In this document: one piece after another, positions 4,908 through 42,855 of the stretch
How the letters are laid out: each line of letters starts with the position of its first letter
Numbering within the stretch: position 1 is the stretch's first letter
Source: Chloroflexota bacterium
GTDB taxonomy: Bacteria; Chloroflexota; Anaerolineae; Anaerolineales; UBA11579
Length of the DNA: 64,000 nt
Reading direction: 5' to 3'
Assembly (NCBI GenBank): GCA_016191875.1
Contig: JACPVG010000012.1
Span: 1-64,000, forward strand
The notes under the pieces: generated by a model
Told to the model about the DNA's origin: nothing
Seen by the model: only the letters and a program-made list of their open reading frames with translations
Database searches by the model: none
Translations under genes and position numbers: made by a program

Positions 4908-6167
4908 TCAGTCGGCCGGGGCGGGGGCAGGCGCGGGTTCGGGCGATTCGGCCGCCTGCTGCAAGCGCAGCTTGAAATGCACCAGCAGGATGGAAAAGGA
5001 CGCCGCCAGGGTGGTGATGATGAAAGGCAGGCGCGGCGAGTAGGTCTCCCATAGGCGCGCGCCGATGTAGGGCGCCGGCAGGCTGACCAGCCCGAGGCTG
5101 GTGCCGAACAGGCCGAAGGCCACCCCGCGCCGTTCGGGCGGCACGGCTTTCGAGAAGAGCGCGTCGAAGGCCGGGTCGGCGATGCCGAAGCCGACGCCGA
5201 GCACGACCCACGAGAGCGCGAAGGCCAGGAAGCCGCGCGACCCCAGGAACAAGCCCAGGCCGGCCGCCTGCAGGGCAAAGCCGAGCATGATGGTGCGCCG
5301 CTCGCCGATGCGGTCGGAGAGGCCGCCGGCGGGGGTCATGACTGCCATGCGCGCCAGGTGCAGGATGCTGCCGAGCAGGCCGACCTGGGTGAGGGTGAGG
5401 CCAGCGATCTCGTTGAAGTACAGCGACTGGAACTCAAACGACATGCGGAAGGCGACATCGCGCACCCCGTCGGTGAGGATAAGCCAGGTAAAGACGCCGC
5501 CGCCCACCAGCAAGGCCAGCAGGCTGGCGAGGCTGGCGCGCAGCGAGGCCAGCGTTGGGCGCGACTCGGAGTGGCCGGCGGGTCTGGCGCGGAAGCGCGG
5601 CGCAAGCGCCATCCAGATGCGCAGGGCGGCGGCCGAGCCGTACATAAGAGCGGCGATCCAGATAAGGATCTTGAACCCGTAGGCGTCCGCCACCCAGCCG
5701 CCCAGCGGCGGGCCGATGACGCCCACCACGGCAAACAACGTGTGCATCAGGCCGAACACCCGGCCGCGCACAGCCTCAGCCGACTGGTCGGCGATGAACG
5801 CGCCGAACGATGGGCCGACCAACGCGCCGGAGACGAATTCGAGCATGAGCGCCAGCATCGCCATTTGCCACGAAGTGGCGAAAAGCAGCACGCCATAGCC
5901 AAGAGTGGCCACTGCCGCGCCGATGGCAATCGCCTTCAGGCGGCCAATCGTGTCTGAGAGCCAGCCGCCGAGAATTTGCAGAGCGAGCGGGATGAGCGCG
6001 GCCAAAGTGAAGGTCAGGCCGACCTGCTCGACGGTGGCGCCCAAGTCGCGGGCGAGGTAGACCGCCATCAGCGGCAGAAGCATGTGCCCGGCGGTGTTGG
6101 CGAGGATCATCGTGCCAAGGAACCAGCGCAGCACGGGCGTGAGGAAGTGGAGGGGATTTTTGGGCAT
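4908..6167 (-). CDS. MFS transporter
   Basis: 419 aa, 12-TM-like; GGWLSDTIGRLKAIAIG and GGLSDRIGERRTIMLG loop motifs. Confidence 0.85.
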   Translation of the reverse strand: MPKNPLHFLTPVLRWFLGTMILANTAGHMLLPLMAVYLARDLGATVEQVGLTFTLAALIPLALQILGGWLSDTIGRLKAIAIGAAVATLGYGVLLFATSWQMAMLALMLEFVSGALVGPSFGAFIADQSAEAVRGRVFGLMHTLFAVVGVIGPPLGGWVADAYGFKILIWIAALMYGSAAALRIWMALAPRFRARPAGHSESRPTLASLRASLASLLALLVGGGVFTWLILTDGVRDVAFRMSFEFQSLYFNEIAGLTLTQVGLLGSILHLARMAVMTPAGGLSDRIGERRTIMLGFALQAAGLGLFLGSRGFLAFALSWVVLGVGFGIADPAFDALFSKAVPPERRGVAFGLFGTSLGLVSLPAPYIGARLWETYSPRLPFIITTLAASFSILLVHFKLRLQQAAESPEPAPAPAPAD

Positions 6168-6203
6168 GGTGGAGTTTCGATGGCCTTGAGAGAGATTCTC
6201 TAT

Positions 6204-6279
6204 GCGATATTCGTTATTCGATATCCGTTATTCGAAGTGCAACTCTCGCTTCAACTGAGTCTCGAATATCGAATATCCG
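6204..6279. repeat. heptamer microrepeat array, inverted (ATATTCG TTATTCG ATATCCG TTATTCG ... CGAATAT CGAATAT CCG)
   Basis: Direct reading; period 7, two arms in inverted orientation. Confidence 0.75.
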
Positions 6280-6291
6280 CTCACGGGTCTT

Positions 6292-7647
6292 CTACTGCAA
6301 CGCCCACAGGGCCGAGTGGGCTTTTGGGAACAGGATGCGCGCCAGCACGCCTTTATCGGGCGCGTCGCGGTCCACCCAGCAGTCCGGGAAGGCGGCTTCC
6401 AGTTCGTCCAGGCTGCGGTAGCCGAACAGCATCTGGAGGAAGGTGCGGTCCGGGAAGGCGACGTGGCCGCGGTACTCGGTGGCGGGCTGCCAGGCTTCCA
6501 CGCCGGCGAGCATGCCCTGCTCAAAGAGCAGACGCACGCCGCTGCGATAGAAGTTGAGCATCAGGTCGCCGGTGTAGCCGGGCAGGTAGGAGGCGGCCAG
6601 GCGCGCTTCGAGGGCCGGGGCGATGCGGCGCAGGAAGGCGGGCAGGTCCGGCACGCGCAGGTACCAGGCATACGGCTCGGCGACCTCCTGCATGCGGTGG
6701 GGAATCACCTGGTAGAGCGGGTGCTGGCTGCCGAGCACGAAGTAGATCTGCTCAAAAGCCTTGTCAGAGTTCTGCTCCTTGAGGCGCTGTTCGCCAATGG
6801 ATTGGAAGCCGCGCAACGCGCTGTTGGCGACCGCCTGCCAGTTATGGCCGGGGGCGGCCTCGAACCACCAGATGGGCAGCGCGCCGCCCCACATCATGTC
6901 CGGGCCGAAAGCAAACCCGACCGGCTCGCCGGCGGGCGTTTCGAAGATATCCACCCGGAAGGAGGCCTGCGGCGAACGGCCGCCGAGTTCCAGCCGCCAG
7001 AGGGCTTCGTCGCGCGGGCAGGCCAGCAGGGAGCGGGACGCGCCGCGCGCGTACAGGCCTATAAGGAAGGGAATATCGGCTTGTGTTGCTTTGCGCAGGC
7101 GGTAAGGCTCTTCTTCGCCTTCCTTGAGTGCGGGGATGAGCGGCGCATAACAGCGCCGCCCGCCGGACAGTTCAACGGCCATTTCATAGCCGAACTGGCG
7201 GTAGTACCACGGGATGCCGGTGATGGCCTGCACGAGGTGGCCGCGCTCGGCGCTCCAGCGGTGGACGACCTCGAACTGCCTGCGCACCAGGCCGCGCCGC
7301 CGGTACTCCGGGTGGGTGGCCACCAGTTCCGGCCGCCCGACGCCGAACGGCACGCCGGCGTAGGTCCACGTCTGCGGGATGAGGTTCATGGATGAAACGA
7401 TCATCTTGCGGGCGGTGTCTTCCACGATGAGGAAGTCGCCGGGCGCCAGGGTGGGGTGCGGCCGGGTGAGCGAGTCGTGCGTCCAGTGATAGAGGAAAGG
7501 CTCCGGGTGGTCCCAGCCCTCGTCGGAGTGCACGCGGCTGTTGAAGTCACCCAGGCGCTCGGCGTCGGCGGGCGTGGCGTGGCGCAGAATCAGGCCGTCG
7601 CCAAGGTCTTCGATGAAGGTCTGTTGTCGCCTGGTTTTTGTGGTCAT
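6292..7647 (-). CDS. GNAT-family N-acetyltransferase, Eis-like large architecture
   Basis: 451 aa; VGRPELVATHPEYRRRGLVRRQFEVVHRWSAERGH acetyl-CoA-binding motif, GIPWYYRQFGYE, long C-terminal extension. Confidence 0.75.
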   Translation of the reverse strand: MTTKTRRQQTFIEDLGDGLILRHATPADAERLGDFNSRVHSDEGWDHPEPFLYHWTHDSLTRPHPTLAPGDFLIVEDTARKMIVSSMNLIPQTWTYAGVPFGVGRPELVATHPEYRRRGLVRRQFEVVHRWSAERGHLVQAITGIPWYYRQFGYEMAVELSGGRRCYAPLIPALKEGEEEPYRLRKATQADIPFLIGLYARGASRSLLACPRDEALWRLELGGRSPQASFRVDIFETPAGEPVGFAFGPDMMWGGALPIWWFEAAPGHNWQAVANSALRGFQSIGEQRLKEQNSDKAFEQIYFVLGSQHPLYQVIPHRMQEVAEPYAWYLRVPDLPAFLRRIAPALEARLAASYLPGYTGDLMLNFYRSGVRLLFEQGMLAGVEAWQPATEYRGHVAFPDRTFLQMLFGYRSLDELEAAFPDCWVDRDAPDKGVLARILFPKAHSALWALQ

Positions 7648-7683
7648 GGCAATCGTCCGAACCTGTCGATGATTGGTGTGGGT

Positions 7684-8154
7684 TCACCCGCCCTGCACCT
7701 CGGCGGCGATCTCCTGCTGTTTGGGTTTGCCCGAGGCGGCCCACTCGGCCAGCAGGGTCTGGGCGGGCGGCTCTGCGCGCCGGGGGCGCAAAGCCAGCGC
7801 GATGGCCTGGCGTATCTCCGGGCGCGGGTCGAGCGCCAGTTCGTCCAGGGCGCGGCGGGCGAGCGCCTCTCCGGTCAGGGCGCGGCCGCACAGGGCCGCG
7901 GCGGCGATGGCGCGGAAGGCGGCCTGCGAGTCGCGGCCCATGCCCACCAGCAGGCTGGTGGGCACGCCGGGCTGATCCAGGGCGGCGCCCAGCAGCGCAA
8001 GCGCCCGTTGGACGAAGGCGGCTTCCATATCCGGGTTGCCAGCCACTTCCGGCCATTCCAGCAGACCAGCCAGCGCCACCCCGATGCCTTCCGGCTGGCC
8101 GAGGCGGGCGGCGGCTTTCACGTCCGCCAGCAGTTCGCGCAGCATTTCGTTCAT
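7684..8154 (-). CDS. hypothetical helical (HEAT-like) protein
   Basis: 156-aa ORF in the minus-strand gene run between GNAT and MFS genes; regular helical repeats (ALRPRRAEPPAQTLLAEWAASGK). Confidence 0.55.
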   Translation of the reverse strand: MNEMLRELLADVKAAARLGQPEGIGVALAGLLEWPEVAGNPDMEAAFVQRALALLGAALDQPGVPTSLLVGMGRDSQAAFRAIAAAALCGRALTGEALARRALDELALDPRPEIRQAIALALRPRRAEPPAQTLLAEWAASGKPKQQEIAAEVQGG

Positions 8155-8158
8155 GCGC

Positions 8159-9454
8159 TCACTGCCCCACGGCCGCTTCTGCCTGGAGCGCCGCCTGAGC
8201 CTCCGGGCGCGGTTCGCGCCGGTGGAACCAGATCCAGGTCAGGCTGATGGCGACGACATACAGCAGCGAGGTGGCGACAAACAGCGGGCCGAAACCGGCG
8301 CGCGCCTGCACCAGACCGGAGATATACGGGCCGACCGCCCAGCCGAACTGCCAGGTGAGCATCTGCAGGCTGGCGACCGTGCCCTGGGCCTTCTGCGGCA
8401 CCTGGTCCATCACGAAGGCGTCCCACAACGGCGCGCCGATGTTGATCAGGGCGCCGCGCAGCCACAGGGCCAGCGCCGCCACCGGCAGGCTGGGCGCCAG
8501 GCCGAGCACGACCATGAACAGCATCGAAGAACCCTGGCTGGCGACCACGGCCCGGACGCGCGATTTCAGGGCGCGTTCCAGGCGCGGGCCGACCAGCGCG
8601 CCGAGGGCGATGACCAGCGACAGGAAGCCAAAAATGAAGCCCAGGCCGGGATCGGAGACCGCGAAGCGGTCGACCAGATACAGGTTGAAGTAAGGGATGA
8701 GCAGGGCGGCGCCGAAACCCATAACCATGTTTGGCACAACGAGTTTCCAAACCTCTTTATTTTGCAAAATATCTTGCAGTTTGTGGCTGTCCACCACGTG
8801 GTGCTCGGCTTTCTCATCGTTGGCCTTTGGCATGCGGATGCCCAGCAGCGGGATGAGCGAGAGGAATGCCAGCCCGGTGCTGAGCAGCACGATGGCGCGG
8901 TAGGAGGCGCCGCTGCCGGCCGCCAGCCTGAAAGCGGTTTCCAGCCCTTCCGGCAGCAGCCCGGCGAAGTAATTGCCGAACATGCTGGCGAAGGTCATCG
9001 AAGCCATGTTGAGGCTGAAGACCAGGCTGCGGTTCTTCGGCTCGGTGAGGCTCGCCAGCAGCGGCGAGACGCTGACCACAAAGAGCGCATCCCCCGCGCC
9101 ACCGACGAAGGCGCCAAAGAGAATCAGGTTCGCGTTGTCGGCCAGCCCGACCAGGCCGAAGCCGAGGATCAGCACGGTGACGCCGATGAGCAACGCGCGG
9201 CGGCGGCCAATGCGGTCGGACACCCAGCCCATGGGCAGGCAGAAGAGCAGCATCCCGAGGGCGGGCGCGCCCTGCACCAGGCCAAGGAATTTGCGGTCGA
9301 AGCCCAGGCCGAGGATGTAGAAGTTGAAGAACAGCGCCCAGCCGCTCCAGAACAGGCCGAACATGCCGTTGGAGATCAGGAACAGGCGCGCCGAGGGGTT
9401 GATGTTCCGCCAGACGGCGAGCGGATGTTTGAGGAGTCTCTTGATTGTAGTCAT
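8159..9454 (-). CDS. MFS transporter
   Basis: 431 aa; LFCLPMGWVSDRIGRRRALLIG motif, multiple TM segments. Confidence 0.85.
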   Translation of the reverse strand: MTTIKRLLKHPLAVWRNINPSARLFLISNGMFGLFWSGWALFFNFYILGLGFDRKFLGLVQGAPALGMLLFCLPMGWVSDRIGRRRALLIGVTVLILGFGLVGLADNANLILFGAFVGGAGDALFVVSVSPLLASLTEPKNRSLVFSLNMASMTFASMFGNYFAGLLPEGLETAFRLAAGSGASYRAIVLLSTGLAFLSLIPLLGIRMPKANDEKAEHHVVDSHKLQDILQNKEVWKLVVPNMVMGFGAALLIPYFNLYLVDRFAVSDPGLGFIFGFLSLVIALGALVGPRLERALKSRVRAVVASQGSSMLFMVVLGLAPSLPVAALALWLRGALINIGAPLWDAFVMDQVPQKAQGTVASLQMLTWQFGWAVGPYISGLVQARAGFGPLFVATSLLYVVAISLTWIWFHRREPRPEAQAALQAEAAVGQ

Positions 9455-9465
9455 GATGTTGTCCC

Positions 9466-9576
9466 AAGTATCGTAAACCGTAATTCGTACGTGGTAACTG
9501 GTAAGTGGTTATTTGGGGCGGGCATCGAAGGAGGGCCGCTTTGCTGAATTACCAATTGCCCATTTCCAGTTACATG
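9466..9576. repeat. heptamer microrepeat array, inverted arms
   Basis: CGTAAAC/CGTAATT/CGTACGT/GGTAACT/GGTAAGT/GGTTATT ... GAATTAC/CAATTGC/CCATTTC/CAGTTAC. Confidence 0.75.
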
Positions 9577-10190
9577 TTTTTCTCTTCCAGCAGGGCGCGC
9601 AGGTCGGCGAGGGCCTGGGCGGAGTCCTGGAAGCGGATAGCGTGCAGGCCCAGGGCGCGGGCGGCGGCGACGTGGGGTTCGTAGTCGTCCACGAAGACGG
9701 CCTCCTCCGCCAGACAGCCGGCTTTTTCCAGCGCCATCTCGAAGATGGCCGGGTCGGGCTTCATCAGGCCGACCTCGGCGGAGATGACCAGGTGGTGGAA
9801 GGCATGGTCGATGCCCCAGCCCTGCATCTCGCGGCGCAACGTGGGCAGATGGTTGCTCACCAGCACCAGCCGGTAGCCGCCTTTGAGGCGGCGCAATTCA
9901 GCCACCAGGGCGTAATCCACCACGTCGCCGGCGTAGAACTCGGCCAGCATCGCCGGGATGTCTTCGACCGGCAGGCCCAGGCTGGCGGCCAGCCCGGCGT
10001 GGTAGTCCGCCTCGCTCACCTCGCCCAGTTGCAGGGCGTTGCGGCCGTCCGTCAGCCCGAAGACCAGGTCGTTGAGTTCCTGGCGCGTGCGCCCCAGCCG
10101 GGCGGCCAGAGCGTCACGCGGCGCCGGGTCTGCGGTGCGGACGAGCACGCCGCCGAGGTCCCAGAGGAGGGCATGGATGGGCATAGGCAT
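9570..10190 (-). CDS. HAD-family hydrolase
   Basis: HALLWDLGGVLVRT ... LVLVSNHLP ... VGLMKPDPAIF ... VFVDDYEPHVAAARALGL. Confidence 0.85.
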   Translation of the reverse strand: MPMPIHALLWDLGGVLVRTADPAPRDALAARLGRTRQELNDLVFGLTDGRNALQLGEVSEADYHAGLAASLGLPVEDIPAMLAEFYAGDVVDYALVAELRRLKGGYRLVLVSNHLPTLRREMQGWGIDHAFHHLVISAEVGLMKPDPAIFEMALEKAGCLAEEAVFVDDYEPHVAAARALGLHAIRFQDSAQALADLRALLEEKNM

Positions 10191-11231
10191 TCACTCCAGC
10201 GCGGTGGTCGAGATCTCTTCGCCGGCGCGCAGCACTTTCTCGTAGCGGTCGATGCGGCGGTGGACGTGCATGCCGGCCTTTTCGTACAGGCGCACGGCAC
10301 CGGTCAGGCTGCCGGCATCCACGTGCAGGGTGGCGGCTTTGAGGCCGCGGGCATCGAAGGCGCGGAACGAGTGCAGCAGCAGGGCGCGGCCGAGGCCGCG
10401 TTTGCGCCACGGGCGGCGCACGCCCAGCGTGGCGACGTAGCCCGCCGTACGGTCCTCATCGTCCCACTTGCGGCACAGGCTCATCCCGGCGATCTGGTCG
10501 CCATCCCTGGCCAGGAACCACAGGGCGGGGTCGAAGGCCTCATCGCCGAGGGCGAAGTGCTGGAAGCGTGGGAAACCGCTCTCGAACGGCTCATGGATGT
10601 AGCCGTAGTGGTCCTGGAAGGCGTCCACGATGGCGCGGTAGACGGCTTCGGCTTCGCCCGGATGATTGTAGGTCTCAATGCGGATGCCCTGCGGCCACTC
10701 GGGGGCATCGACCTCGCCGTCGAAATCACGGCGCATCTTGAAGGCATGGCGGAAAAGCGTGAAACCGTGGCCGGCCAGCAGGTCGGCGGCGGGCTGCCAG
10801 CCGCCATAGGCGAAGGCGCGGATGGCGAAGCGCAGATGCTCCGGGGCGGCGGCCAGATGCTGGGCGGCGCGCCCGTCGGCCCAGGCCAGCAGGGCGCCGC
10901 CCAGCCCCCGGTTCATGTGGTCCGGGTCGACGCGGCCGAAGACCATTGGATAGACCTGCGGCTTGACCAGGGCGAACATGTCCTGGTAGGCGGCCAGCTC
11001 GCCGCCCGGAGCGAAGATCGCCAGCGAGTCGGCGGCCAGGTCCAGGCCGGGGGCCTGGAGCTCCTTGCGCAGTTCGGTCTCGTTGTAGTCTTCCACGCTG
11101 ATCATCACCTGGCTGGTACGGTTGAGCAGGCGCGTGATGGCGGGCACATCCTCCAGCGTGGCCGGGCGGGCGGTGTAGCCGGGCGGCAGATTCAGTTGGG
11201 TGTTTGTTTCGGTCAACATAGCATTCTCCAA
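10191..11231 (-). CDS. GNAT-family N-acetyltransferase (two GNAT modules)
   Basis: ATLGVRRPWRKRGLGRALLLHSFRAF motif and VDAGSLTGAVRLYEKAGM; N-terminal module RPATLEDVPAITRLLN. Confidence 0.85.
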   Translation of the reverse strand: MENAMLTETNTQLNLPPGYTARPATLEDVPAITRLLNRTSQVMISVEDYNETELRKELQAPGLDLAADSLAIFAPGGELAAYQDMFALVKPQVYPMVFGRVDPDHMNRGLGGALLAWADGRAAQHLAAAPEHLRFAIRAFAYGGWQPAADLLAGHGFTLFRHAFKMRRDFDGEVDAPEWPQGIRIETYNHPGEAEAVYRAIVDAFQDHYGYIHEPFESGFPRFQHFALGDEAFDPALWFLARDGDQIAGMSLCRKWDDEDRTAGYVATLGVRRPWRKRGLGRALLLHSFRAFDARGLKAATLHVDAGSLTGAVRLYEKAGMHVHRRIDRYEKVLRAGEEISTTALE

Positions 11232-11233
11232 AA

Positions 11234-11305
11234 AGGAATTGGTAACTGGTAATTTGTAATCAGGGGTACTGACAAATTGCCAGTTACCCGTTTCTAATTA
11301 CCGAT
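11234..11305. repeat. heptamer microrepeat array (AATTGGT AACTGGT AATTTGT AATCAGG ... AAATTGC CAGTTAC CCGTTTC TAATTAC)
   Basis: Direct reading, period 7. Confidence 0.7.
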
Positions 11306-12319
11306 GATGGCCTTCCGATACGTCACACCTTTGCGTTCCACGACGTAGCCCACGCTCTCATAGAGTTGCAGGGCGCCGTTGGGGTTCTGGGCGTCGACGC
11401 CCAGGGCGGTCTCGGTCATGCCCATTTCCCTGAACATCTTCATGCTCTCGGTGAGCAGGTAACGGGCGAGGCCCTGCTTGCGCCACGGGCGGCGGGTGCT
11501 GATGCCTTCGGTATAGCCACGCTGGCGGCTGTACTCTTCGTTCTCTTCCTTGTTCACGAAGTTCTGCACCTGGCCAGCGATCTGGTCGCCCGCCCAACCC
11601 ACTTTCCAGAGCGGGTATTCGTCCTTCACGTTCTTGAGCCAGCCCTGGTACTGGTCTTCGGTGGGCGGCACATAACCCCAGTGGTCGCGGAAGGCATCCT
11701 GGCTGGCATCCCAACAGGCGCGCAGCAGGTCGGCGGTGATGGGCCGGACGTCGATGCCGGGCGGGCAGGGCACATCCAGAATCGGTTGGCTGAGGTCGCG
11801 GCGCATGCCGAAGCCATAGCGCACCGGCTGGAAGCCGCGCGCCTGCCAGATGCCGGTGAGCCAGGTCTCGTGGTCATCGGCAAAGACTTCCAACTGGGCG
11901 TCTTTTCCGGCGGCGTGTTGGGCGGCGATCTGGCGCAAACGGGCTTCGAACCAATCGGCCATGGCGTGGGCCAGGGCGTCGTGGCGGGCGGCGGGTTTGG
12001 TGAACAGCAGGTAGACGTAGCGGCGCAGACCGCTTTCTTCCTGCATCCACCATGCCCGGCCATACGCTTCCACCTGGCCATCCAGCTCAACGAAAAGCAT
12101 GTCCTGGTGAGGGTCGCAGTTCAGCAAGTGCTGGTAGTTGGTGGTGATGACTTCCAACGTGTCGGAGCGTTCGCTGCCGTCGGCGCGCTTCATGCCGTTG
12201 ATGACCGCCAGGATGTTGGCGTAGTCGCTTTCGCCGGCAAAAGTGCGGAAGGTGAGGCCCGGCAGGATCGCGGTATCCGGCAGCGGAAGGGTCTGAGTGA
12301 TTTCAATGGCGTGTGACAT
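11294..12319 (-). CDS. GNAT-family N-acetyltransferase (two GNAT modules)
   Basis: GISTRRPWRKQGLARYLLTESMKMF and VDAQNPNGALQLYESVGY; paralogous to the 10191-11231 gene. Confidence 0.85.
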   Translation of the reverse strand: MSHAIEITQTLPLPDTAILPGLTFRTFAGESDYANILAVINGMKRADGSERSDTLEVITTNYQHLLNCDPHQDMLFVELDGQVEAYGRAWWMQEESGLRRYVYLLFTKPAARHDALAHAMADWFEARLRQIAAQHAAGKDAQLEVFADDHETWLTGIWQARGFQPVRYGFGMRRDLSQPILDVPCPPGIDVRPITADLLRACWDASQDAFRDHWGYVPPTEDQYQGWLKNVKDEYPLWKVGWAGDQIAGQVQNFVNKEENEEYSRQRGYTEGISTRRPWRKQGLARYLLTESMKMFREMGMTETALGVDAQNPNGALQLYESVGYVVERKGVTYRKAIIGN

Positions 12320-12377: not shown

Positions 12378-12578
12378 CTAGTGGTCCTGCAATTCCGGCG
12401 TCTCGAACTCGTCCGCTGGCGCCTGGCTATCGGCCGGGTCGCCGGCCGCCTGGTTCAGTTGCCGCATCACGGCGGCGAACTCGGCCCGGGCGGCTTTCAT
12501 GGCGTTGGCGTGCGCCTGGCGAGCCAGGGCAATGGCGTCCGGCAACACGGGGTTGCGTCTGTCCTGTAAAGCGCTCAT
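12378..12578 (-). CDS. small hypothetical protein (66 aa)
   Basis: MSALQDRRNPVLPDAIALARQAHANAMKAARAEF...; AGAGG upstream of ATG; first sizeable ORF downstream of the attenuator-like leader. Confidence 0.5.
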   Translation of the reverse strand: MSALQDRRNPVLPDAIALARQAHANAMKAARAEFAAVMRQLNQAAGDPADSQAPADEFETPELQDH

Positions 12579-12639
12579 GGCTGCCTCTTCTTCTCAATGC
12601 GGTTCAACAGGGCGGGAGGCAACCGGGTTTCTTTTCTGG

Positions 12640-12708
12640 TTACTCCCGCCGGCGGACGCGGTCGCGTCCCAATCCAACAGCGGTCTCGATTTTCTCGTGC
12701 TCTTCCAT
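12640..12708 (-). CDS. possible 22-aa small ORF (MEEHEKIETAVGLGRDRVRRRE)
   Basis: ATG 12708 preceded by GGAG (TGAGGAGCACGAGATG); lies between terminator and the 66-aa ORF. Coding status unproven. Confidence 0.35.
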   Translation of the reverse strand: MEEHEKIETAVGLGRDRVRRRE

Positions 12709-12759
12709 CTCGTGCTCCTCAGTGATCGGTGATTGCATCTTCTGCCTGCCCGGCAAACA

Positions 12760-12804
12760 AAAACGGCCGCCGGGCGCCCCTTGCGGGGGTTCCGTGGCCG
12801 TTTT
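12760..12804 (-). terminator. intrinsic terminator of attenuator (3:4 helix)
   Basis: RNA AAAACGGCC-ACGGAACCCCCGCAAGGGGCGCCCGGC-GGCCGUUUU UGUUU: 9-bp outer stem with inner CCCC-GCAA-GGGG and U-tract. Confidence 0.8.
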
Positions 12805-12867
12805 GAGGGCTAACCTTCTACGCCCTTAAACAATTCGGCCACGGACTTGTGCCTGCGTCCATGGCCG
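12792..12867 (-). promoter_or_regulatory. attenuator segments 1, 2, 3 (protector 1:2 and antiterminator 2:3)
   Basis: Seg1 CGGCCAUGGAC (12867-12857), seg2 GUCCGUGGCCG (12846-12836), seg3 CGGCCACGG (12800-12792). 1:2 is 11 bp with one G-U; 2:3 is 9 bp perfect; 2:3 and 3:4 are mutually exclusive. Confidence 0.75.
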
Positions 12868-12896
12868 GGGTGGGTTCTATCGAACGTTTGTTCCGG

Positions 12897-12989
12897 TCAG
12901 CAGACGCACTGCGACAAGGCGAATCCATCGCCCGCGCCCTTCGAGGCGGTGCGGGTGACTGCAATGAGGTTGGGGGTGTACTTCACCAT
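12897..12989 (-). CDS. putative leader peptide (30 aa: MVKYTPNLIAVTRTASKGAGDGFALSQCVC)
   Basis: ATG 12989 with AAAGGAG SD at 13007-13001; TGA at 12899-12897; located between promoter and attenuator stems. Confidence 0.5.
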   Translation of the reverse strand: MVKYTPNLIAVTRTASKGAGDGFALSQCVC

Positions 12990-13027
12990 TTGCCGTGCGT
13001 CTCCTTTCCTGGATTTACAACTCGCCT

Positions 13028-13057
13028 ATCCTACCACCGGAATTCAGCGGGTGTCAA
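13028..13057 (-). promoter_or_regulatory. sigma70-type promoter TTGACA-N18-TAGGAT
   Basis: Minus strand: TTGACA (13057-13052), 18-nt spacer, TAGGAT (13033-13028), about 40 nt upstream of leader ATG. Confidence 0.65.
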
Positions 13058-15436: not shown

Positions 15437-15481
15437 AACGAGTAACCTGCCAAACCTGCTCGATTGGAAAGGAGTTCAGTG

Positions 15482-15934
15482 ATGAAGACCAGGCACATAT
15501 TCAAGAAACTCGTCGGCTTTACGGTGATGATGGCGTTGTTGGGGTGTGGCGCCTCTTCCGGTCTGCTCGGGCCGACCCCCACGCCGGAACCCACCGCCAC
15601 GCCTGCGCCGCTGGCGAAGTCGGGCCATTGGAAAGGCGACCCCAATGTGTCCTTTGATGTAAGCGCGGATGGGGAAGTGAACAATTTCCGCATCGTTATC
15701 GCTGGAGACTGCATTCTGGAGATACTTCGACCGGTTGCCATCAATGCTGACGGCTCGATGAGCATTGGCGAAGTGGATTCTGACGGCCAGCCGGTGAATG
15801 ACGGCATCGTGGGCACGTTTGGCACGGCAACCACCATCCAGGGAACCATTGCCAATCCTTTTATCTGCGGGTCCTATAAGTACGGGATGTCGGCGGACAT
15901 GGCGGAGTGGAGTGCGGTGTGGGTGGGGCCGTAA
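15482..15934 (+). CDS. lipoprotein, tandem paralog 1
   Basis: MKTRHIFKKLVGFTVMMALLGCGASS lipobox; GHWKGDPNVSFDVSADGEVNNF; SD GGAAAGGAG. Confidence 0.75.
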   Translation: MKTRHIFKKLVGFTVMMALLGCGASSGLLGPTPTPEPTATPAPLAKSGHWKGDPNVSFDVSADGEVNNFRIVIAGDCILEILRPVAINADGSMSIGEVDSDGQPVNDGIVGTFGTATTIQGTIANPFICGSYKYGMSADMAEWSAVWVGP

Positions 15935-15988
15935 TCGGCGCCCGAAATCCACTACAGGATGAATCGCCCCCTGGAAAGGAGCGAAGCA

Positions 15989-16456
15989 ATGAACGTGTAC
16001 AAGACCTATAGCAAAGTCATAGGTTTAGCGCTGGTCATGGGGCTGCTACTGGGTTGCGGGGCGGCCAGCAGCATCCTTGTCCCCACCGCCACGCCGGAAC
16101 CCACCGCCACGCCTGCGCCGCTGGCGAAGCCGGGCCACTGGGAGGGCGACCCCGAAGTGTCTTTTGATGTGAGCGCAGAGGGGACCGTCAGCAACTTCAC
16201 CATGCTGGTAGCGGGTGATTGCCGGGTGAAAATCAATACTACGATAAGAATTGGTGGCGGGGATGTCCTTGTCATTGGCAACATTGGCCTCGATGGCAAG
16301 CCGTTTGACAATGGCATCGTCGGCAGATTTGACTCCAGCACCCACATTCAGGGGACTATCGCATCTCCGTATGTGTGCGGCAGCGTTGGGGTAATTTCCA
16401 CCTATTACTTACCGGAGGCCCTGACGGGTTGGAGTGCCGAATGGGTGGGGCCGTGA
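15989..16456 (+). CDS. lipoprotein, tandem paralog 2
   Basis: MNVYKTYSKVIGLALVMGLLLGCGAASS lipobox; GHWEGDPEVSFDVSAEGTVSNF; SD GGAAAGGAG. Confidence 0.75.
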   Translation: MNVYKTYSKVIGLALVMGLLLGCGAASSILVPTATPEPTATPAPLAKPGHWEGDPEVSFDVSAEGTVSNFTMLVAGDCRVKINTTIRIGGGDVLVIGNIGLDGKPFDNGIVGRFDSSTHIQGTIASPYVCGSVGVISTYYLPEALTGWSAEWVGP

Positions 16457-16512
16457 CTTCAGCCCGGTATCCACGGAGCAGGGGGCGATCTCCCCTCGAA
16501 AGGAGCAGTGCC

Positions 16513-17022
16513 ATGATTCCAGCCCTACGATTGAAGAAAGTTGCCGCGCTTCTGGCAATCGCCGCGCTGACGCTGAGTTGCAATGTCTTATCGCAAGCGC
16601 CGACGGCCACCCCGGCGCCCACCCCCACCCGAACGACCATCCCGACGGCGACGCTGACCCCAACCCCTGAGGCCAGCCCGACCCCGCCGGGCTACCCGAA
16701 TGCCGGTCATTGGGAAGGCGAAGGGGTGTCGTTTGATGTCACCCAGGATGGGCGCGTGACCAACTTCTCGATTGAGTTGAGCGACTGCATCGTGAAACTG
16801 GGGTCGATAGCCGTAATCTCGGAAGATTATGAATTCAGGTTCGGCACAATGACCAGCAGCGGGCCGGTGTACGATGGCATCCTGGGAACTTTCACATCCT
16901 CCACAACCATGACCGGTACAAATGCCAATCCATTCACCTGCTCTTCAGTGCCGGGATTTTCGACCACTATCACCTGGTATGGCGGCACACCGCCCTGGTG
17001 GGCCAAGTGGGTAGGGCCATAA
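16513..17022 (+). CDS. lipoprotein, tandem paralog 3
   Basis: MIPALRLKKVAALLAIAALTLSCNVLS; GHWEGEGVSFDVTQDGRVTNFSIELSDC...TGTNANPFTCSS. Confidence 0.75.
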   Translation: MIPALRLKKVAALLAIAALTLSCNVLSQAPTATPAPTPTRTTIPTATLTPTPEASPTPPGYPNAGHWEGEGVSFDVTQDGRVTNFSIELSDCIVKLGSIAVISEDYEFRFGTMTSSGPVYDGILGTFTSSTTMTGTNANPFTCSSVPGFSTTITWYGGTPPWWAKWVGP

Positions 17023-42518: not shown

Positions 42519-42591
42519 GCCGAGATAGCTCAGTTGGTAGAGCACGCGACTGAAAATCGCGGTGTCGACAGTTCGATCCTGTCTCTCGGCA
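42519..42591 (+). tRNA. tRNA-Phe (GAA)
   Basis: GCCGAGA...TCTCGGC acceptor, D-arm TAGCTCAGTTGGTAGAGCA, anticodon loop CTGAAAA, T-arm GTTCGATCC. Confidence 0.93.
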
Positions 42592-42622
42592 CTCTCGGCC
42601 GAGATTCGGAAAGGCCGCATGT

Positions 42623-42695
42623 GCGGGCGTAGTTCAGTTGGTAGAACACCTCCTTGCCAAGGAGAAGGTCACGAGTTCGAGTCTCGTCGCCCGCT
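42623..42695 (+). tRNA. tRNA-Gly (GCC)
   Basis: GCGGGCG...CGCCCGC acceptor, anticodon loop TTGCCAA, T-arm GAGTTCGAGTCTC. Confidence 0.93.
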
Positions 42696-42710
42696 CACTC
42701 GCTCCCAGAT

Positions 42711-42755
42711 GGCTGATTGTGAAGGTCTCTCCCGCATGGGCCTTTGCAATCAGCC
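42711..42755. repeat. inter-tRNA hairpin GGCTGATTG...CAATCAGCC
   Basis: 9-bp perfect inverted repeat between tRNA-Gly and tRNA-Cys. Confidence 0.6.
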
Positions 42756-42784
42756 GAATTGTTGAAATGCCCGGTTGACCCCAG

Positions 42785-42855
42785 GGCGACGTGGCCAAGT
42801 GGTAAGGCAAGGGTCTGCAAAACCCTGACCACGGGTTCGAATCCCGTCGTCGCCT
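42785..42855 (+). tRNA. tRNA-Cys (GCA), followed by encoded CCA 42856-42858
   Basis: GGCGACG...CGTCGCC acceptor, anticodon loop CTGCAAA, T-arm GGGTTCGAATCCC. Confidence 0.92.

Follow-up and report, generated by a model that had tools for sequence, protein, structure and literature searches.

In the vmlR leader of Bacillus subtilis, an antibiotic-stalled ribosome prevents an anti-antiterminator from forming, and the element combines a short upstream open reading frame (uORF), an anti-antiterminator that overlaps it, an antiterminator and an intrinsic terminator ahead of an ABC-F gene (PMC9226507). In bmrBCD of the same species, ABC exporter genes are placed under ribosome-mediated transcription attenuation by predicted terminator, antiterminator and anti-antiterminator structures (PMC4191407). 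Leaders of the ErmDL type carry Arg-X-Arg in a short leader ORF, and Arg/Lys-X-Arg/Lys is a published arrest motif for ketolides and, less strictly, for macrolides; alanine at either Arg is tolerated by erythromycin but not by telithromycin (PMC8298421). Finally, in the trp-type amino-acid attenuators, mutually exclusive helices are governed by ribosome position.

Here we describe a leader of the Anaerolineae, found in a 64,000-nucleotide stretch of Chloroflexota DNA (the window), whose logic is best read, by analogy, as that of vmlR and bmrBCD. The leader is probably a transcription attenuator that is governed by its uORF, responds to ribosome stalling and turns on a drug-resistance operon. 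No sequence relation to the vmlR leader was seen, and the two differ in several respects: as described, vmlR has a three-codon uORF (MIN) and a single target gene in Bacilli (PMC9226507), whereas the uORF of the Anaerolineae leader is mostly 20-35 codons long across the family and has an Arg-X-Arg site, many members have tandem terminators, and many types of target gene are found across the class. The bmrB structures are contained in the leader gene itself, whereas the Anaerolineae terminators follow the uORF and the Shine-Dalgarno (SD) region would itself be one arm of the anti-antiterminator. In the erm leaders, hairpins controlling the downstream erm gene respond to the stalled ribosome; in the Anaerolineae leader, intrinsic terminators would do so, and the genes are transporters, ABC-F proteins and acetyltransferases. 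Unlike the trp-type attenuators, the Anaerolineae leader has neither a run of a single amino acid nor biosynthetic genes behind it.

All elements of the leader lie on the minus strand of the window. A sigma-70 type promoter, TTGACA-N18-TAGGAT (13028-13057; TTGACA at 13057-13052, TAGGAT at 13033-13028), is also kept in two congener loci (L003 and L004), and is followed by the SD sequence AAAGGAG (13007-13001) and by a uORF of 30 codons plus stop with an ATG start (12897-12989), whose predicted peptide is MVKYTPNLIAVTRTASKGAGDGFALSQCVC. The SD region provides segment 1, AGGAGACGCAC (12995-13005), the putative anti-antiterminator arm, and its predicted partner is segment 2, the end of the uORF, TTGTCGCAGTGCGTCTGCTGA (12897-12917), with the core TGCGTCT at 12902-12908. 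Downstream stands the 11-bp hairpin T1, CGGCCAUGGAC/GUCCGUGGCCG (12836-12867), separated from the uORF stop codon by 29 nt. Its 5' arm and loop form segment 3, GGACGCAGGCACAAG (12846-12860), which would pair with segment 2 as an antiterminator, and its 3' arm, GUCCGUGGCCG (12836-12846), is segment 4. Segment 5, CGGCCACGG (12800-12792), is the 5' arm of the second hairpin, T2, and is complementary over 9 bp to the 3' arm of T1. T2 and its U-tract (12755-12803; hairpin 12803-12761, then UUGUUU) make up a predicted intrinsic terminator ahead of the first gene, although T2 was not flagged by a simple terminator scan of the window.

Much of this was anticipated by a preliminary description of the window, which had proposed a complete transcription attenuator with four RNA segments. 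Its promoter, SD sequence, 30-codon ORF and both hairpins agree base for base with ours, as do its 9-bp pairing between the hairpins and its spacing of about 29 nt from stop codon to first hairpin. Its helices 1:2, 2:3 and 3:4 can be traced in the sequence, and correspond to 3:4 (T1), 4:5 and 5:6 (T2) of what is a six-segment relay; the attenuator reading thus stands and its completeness does not, because the downstream half alone had been described, and the helices joining the SD region to the uORF end (1:2) and the uORF end to the 5' arm of T1 (2:3) had been missed.

In the window, these two additional duplexes were computed at -21.2 kcal/mol (1:2) and -20.5 kcal/mol (2:3). Folding of the single sequence was set aside as uninformative, since the window leader, over 318 nt, gave z=-1.76 relative to shuffled sequences. 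Taken alone, the window would not establish a switch; what goes beyond chance comes from comparison with other genomes. A GC-rich inverted repeat, GGCGGGAG ... CTCCCGCC (12606-12656, minus strand), was also observed between T2 and the first gene; it is partly visible in the two congeners (G001 and G002), neither of which preserves the short ORF frames surrounding it.

Conservation in relatives had been set beforehand as one test of the preliminary description, and it was borne out. A DNA search recovered the leader at 75-77% identity in both other genomes of the genus that were compared, where it is conserved together with the whole eight-gene operon (G001 and G002), and a shorter match was found within the family. 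A 26-nt pattern of the uORF end, with up to three mismatches allowed, occurred in 16 of 400 genomes of the order, as against none for the reversed control. An exact scan of GTDB species genomes found about 38 loci in the Anaerolineae or Chloroflexota, including one in the cultured Anaerolinea thermolimosa, where the leader precedes an ABC-F gene. Pattern matches in Pseudomonas, Streptomyces, Rhizobium and others were discarded, as they have neither SD sequence nor uORF and look like chance. A covariance model (R1) built from the uORF end to T1 matched 136 of 396 Anaerolineae genomes and 91 of 223 genera, with as many as four copies in a genome. Across 400 genomes sampled from the whole phylum, its sole match outside the Anaerolineae (G1005, 28.5 bits) was rejected on inspection as a plain terminator without the uORF end. 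In 132 of 144 loci passing the length and SD filters, the switch is spanned by an SD-preceded uORF, so that a predicted short ORF with its putative ribosome-binding site, as expected of a ribosome-mediated attenuator, is a regular part of the leader.

The alternative helices were examined with an exchange test, which asks whether each locus's own pair of segments fits better than segments taken from other loci. With relatedness not removed, own pairs were favored for both 1:2 (z=-6.6) and 2:3 (z=-8.6) in 70 non-redundant loci, relative to z=-0.8 for a mid-uORF control. For 4:5, the 50 loci with a second terminator gave z=-11.4, a value that is inflated because T2 resembles a copy of T1, which provides part of the complementarity automatically. 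For example, segments 1 and 2 pair as AGACGCAC with GTGCGTCT in the window, AGGCGCACT with AGTGCGCCT in L060, CGCACTTC with GAAGTGCG in L028 and CGCATTCC with GGAGTGCG in L030; in some loci (L046, L053), helix 1:2 is weak or missing. An example of 2:3 is ATTGCGCC with GGCGCAAT in L153. The helix between SD region and uORF end, which would be the counterpart of the vmlR anti-antiterminator overlapping its uORF, is accordingly present and co-varying. Within T1, compensatory changes were found at 10 of 10 consensus pairs, in line with the covariation expected for the first hairpin of the preliminary description. T1 carries a U-tail, and is thus a predicted terminator, in 130 loci (mean -21.5 kcal/mol). 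Its U-tract is missing solely in L002, L003 and L004, which belong to the window's genus; T1 would there act on T2 through 4:5 alone. A second terminator hairpin lies within 110 nt in 50 of 73 loci. Predicted folding intermediates contained 1:2 in 56 of 70 loci (43 with shuffled segments) and 2:3 in 65 of 70 (46 with shuffled segments), which is consistent with the mechanism proposed below but poorly discriminating in leaders this GC-rich. Taken as a whole, the co-varying, mutually exclusive arrangement of predicted terminator and antiterminator helices is that of a ribosome-mediated attenuator.

The preliminary description found no evident trigger. It was right that the leader has no run of one amino acid; the most likely trigger is Arg-X-Arg at a fixed distance from the switch, of which the window copy retains the second Arg. 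R-X-R occurs in the variable part of 25 of 109 uORF peptides, relative to 7.5 expected from residue shuffling (0 of 2000 shuffles), and in 16 of the non-redundant 70 (4.7 expected). No enrichment was seen for RR (6 observed, 7.9 expected), RxxR, RxxxR or RxxxxR in the same 109 uORFs. The motif is located 13-16 codons before the switch, and in the 70 loci 18.7% of the residues encoded 12-16 codons upstream of the core TGCG are Arg, as against 2.8% elsewhere, a 6.6-fold enrichment. The second Arg may be anywhere from codon 4 to codon 19 (sd 4.2), whereas its distance to the switch varies with an sd of 0.7 codon, which is what a stall site leaving segment 2 free would look like. All of the codons CGC, CGA, CGG and CGT are used, pointing to the amino acid itself. 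In the window, the enrichment places the predicted stall at codons 11-13 (V-T-R; 12951-12959); the congeners have R-L-R (G001) and R-T-R (G002) at that position. The basic arrest motif of the published leaders is enriched at the level of the family, whereas V-T-R in the window has only its second Arg.

The sensor is not uniform, since 27 of the 70 uORFs have no Arg near the position, and these may sense something else. A sub-group of Arg-less uORFs (L083, L084, L088, L090, L101, L103 and relatives) has in common, ahead of the switch, a motif with proline that resembles FxxPDAVGK and may be a different stall signal. The idea that the Arg codons are mere hairpin arms was rejected because their third base varies and, in the Arg frame, CGnnnnCG is concentrated at a single distance; the rejection is not complete, and in some uORFs the second Arg codon seems to lie within a small hairpin. 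In L131, L148, L157 and L167, a possible small hairpin lies just after the sensor codons and seems to co-vary (CTCCGC-loop-GCGGAG; CTTCGC/GCGAAG in L131).

This diversity leaves some room for a general translation-stress sensor, in which any slowing on the uORF, whether by many antibiotic classes, starvation or stress, would open segment 2 without a specific drug motif. Such a reading is possible, if less probable than not. It agrees with the varied uORF sequences and the 27 of 70 that have no Arg at the position, with downstream genes of broad multidrug types, and with the bmrBCD model, in which general slowing by ribosome-targeting drugs acts and translation rate sets read-through (PMC4191407). 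If any slowing sufficed, however, an R-X-R enrichment specific to one spacing would be unexpected. Of the two triggers that the preliminary description had offered, antibiotic-induced ribosome stalling is favored by the evidence over a ligand-binding RNA.

The conserved part of the uORF bears directly on the second of these triggers. The 20-nt uORF end is found in each of the three reading frames, in 114, 24 and 6 loci, respectively. In the most common frame, the uORF ends in RSAPVDR-stop or similar; of the 24 loci in the window's frame, 12 end in CVC- or CAC-stop (as in FALSQCVC) and 8 stop just before the core. Selection is thus on the RNA and not on the C-terminal peptide, and a conserved C-terminal arrest peptide (FALSQCVC or RSAPVDR) was ruled out. 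Conservation of an RNA across frames is also what a riboswitch would show, had the uORF end and T1 together bound a small molecule and the uORF been incidental. We regard this as improbable: what is conserved is not an aptamer-like fold but a single strand that takes part in two alternative helices, almost every locus with in-frame Arg-X-Arg retains an SD-preceded uORF that stays open through the switch, and a search of Rfam, one of the checks proposed at the outset, gave no match at or above gathering score for the window leader (down to E=1) or for 17 relatives.

The genes behind the leader are largely of types associated with drug resistance. Among the first downstream ORFs of 93 loci, ABC_tran was found in 56, GNAT (Acetyltransf_1) in 25, an ABC exporter membrane domain in 24, ABC_tran_Xtn (ABC-F type) in 10, HAD in 4 and MFS in 1. 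Among the examples checked, the ORF behind L160 encodes an ABC-F protein that matches EttA and then structures of resistance ABC-F proteins, and that behind L044 an exporter resembling Sav1866 and MsbA. HAD-family hydrolases are the first gene behind the leader in L108, L112, L118, L147 and L176, and one also occurs inside the window's operon; such hydrolases may belong to the resistance response.

The "resistance-like" operon of the preliminary description holds up; its GNAT, HAD and MFS genes are all identified by Pfam. Its eight genes, all on the minus strand, comprise three GNATs, one HAD hydrolase, two MFS transporters and two proteins without a family. The first ORF encodes a small conserved protein of 66 aa (12378-12578), 53-66% identical in G001 and G002 and with no family match. 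It is followed by GNAT acetyltransferases 1 (11294-12319; PF00583; PDB 7q3a, E=1.7e-29) and 2 (10191-11231; PF00583), a HAD-family hydrolase (9570-10190; PF00702), MFS transporter 1 (8159-9454; PF07690), a 156-aa protein without an assigned function (7684-8154; 72-73% identical in G001 and G002, no Pfam or NCBIfam match), GNAT acetyltransferase 3 (6292-7647; Acetyltransf_9, with a weak resemblance to Eis) and MFS transporter 2, whose family match is to the multidrug-efflux type (4908-6167). The operon is syntenic in both congeners, with 67-86% identity for all but the 66-aa protein. Judging by family membership, these proteins would confer resistance. GNAT acetyltransferases 1 and 2 are about 30% identical, and the two MFS genes resemble each other (within 4908-12319), which suggests that the operon expanded by duplication. 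Elsewhere in the window, three consecutive lipoprotein-like ORFs (LxCGA...PTPTPEPTATPAP...; 15464-17022, plus strand) are apparently tandem paralogues, and three tRNA genes are clustered at 42519-42855.

Such gene content also weighs on amino-acid attenuation, in which the leader would sense charged Arg-tRNA by trp-operon logic. Arg codons do stand at a fixed place before a 1:2 / 2:3 / 3:4 switch, but adjacent Arg runs are not enriched, the window uORF has a single Arg, and the transporters, ABC-F proteins and acetyltransferases downstream are not genes of arginine metabolism, all of which makes this reading very unlikely; assignment to the trp-type class was rejected because there is no run of product-amino-acid codons and there are no matching biosynthetic genes. 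Least probable of all is a reading of T1 and T2 as plain constitutive terminators that end a short transcript, or as a repeat or mobile element. U-tailed, GC-rich hairpins in tandem are indeed frequent, and the weak match from the phylum sample (G1005) was such a terminator, but this reading would not account for a conserved uORF end, co-varying alternative pairings and consistently resistance-type downstream genes across many families.

An attenuator responding to ribosome stalling would be expected to work as follows. In the OFF state, segment 1 would pair with segment 2, or a freely moving ribosome finishing the uORF would cover segment 2; T1 (3:4) and then T2 (5:6) would form, and transcription would terminate at T1/T2 in vivo. 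In the ON state, a translation inhibitor would arrest the ribosome at Arg-X-Arg, 13-16 codons before the switch; the stalled ribosome would expose segment 2 and, through its own bulk or through queued or initiating ribosomes, keep segment 1 from reaching it. Segment 2 would then pair with segment 3 once the latter emerges from RNA polymerase, and T1 would fail. In leaders with two hairpins, the freed 3' arm of T1 (segment 4) would pair with the 5' arm of T2 (segment 5), so that T2 would fail as well and the downstream genes would be transcribed. We infer that the ribosome is stalled by a drug at the Arg-X-Arg position and that induction is mainly due to inhibitors of the macrolide or ketolide kind.

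On balance, we are inclined to see in these leaders a previously undescribed, class-wide regulon of the Anaerolineae, in which one RNA switch module, kept in three frames, stands at a fixed distance from an exchangeable drug-sensing codon motif (mainly Arg-X-Arg) and controls several unrelated resistance mechanisms (pumps, ABC-F ribosome protection and acetyltransferases), often through a two-terminator, six-segment relay. No earlier description of the family was found in open-licence papers; one may exist elsewhere. If this reading is true, a large and mostly uncultured class has its own inducible antibiotic-response system, present in about a third of the genomes sampled, and the genes behind the leader would be a computable guide to uncharacterised genes used against ribosome-targeting drugs. 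Since the codons that sense and the RNA that switches are distinct parts at fixed spacing, the natural variants would amount to a library with which to match nascent-peptide motifs to the drugs involved in stalling. The cultured host, Anaerolinea thermolimosa, makes direct testing possible.
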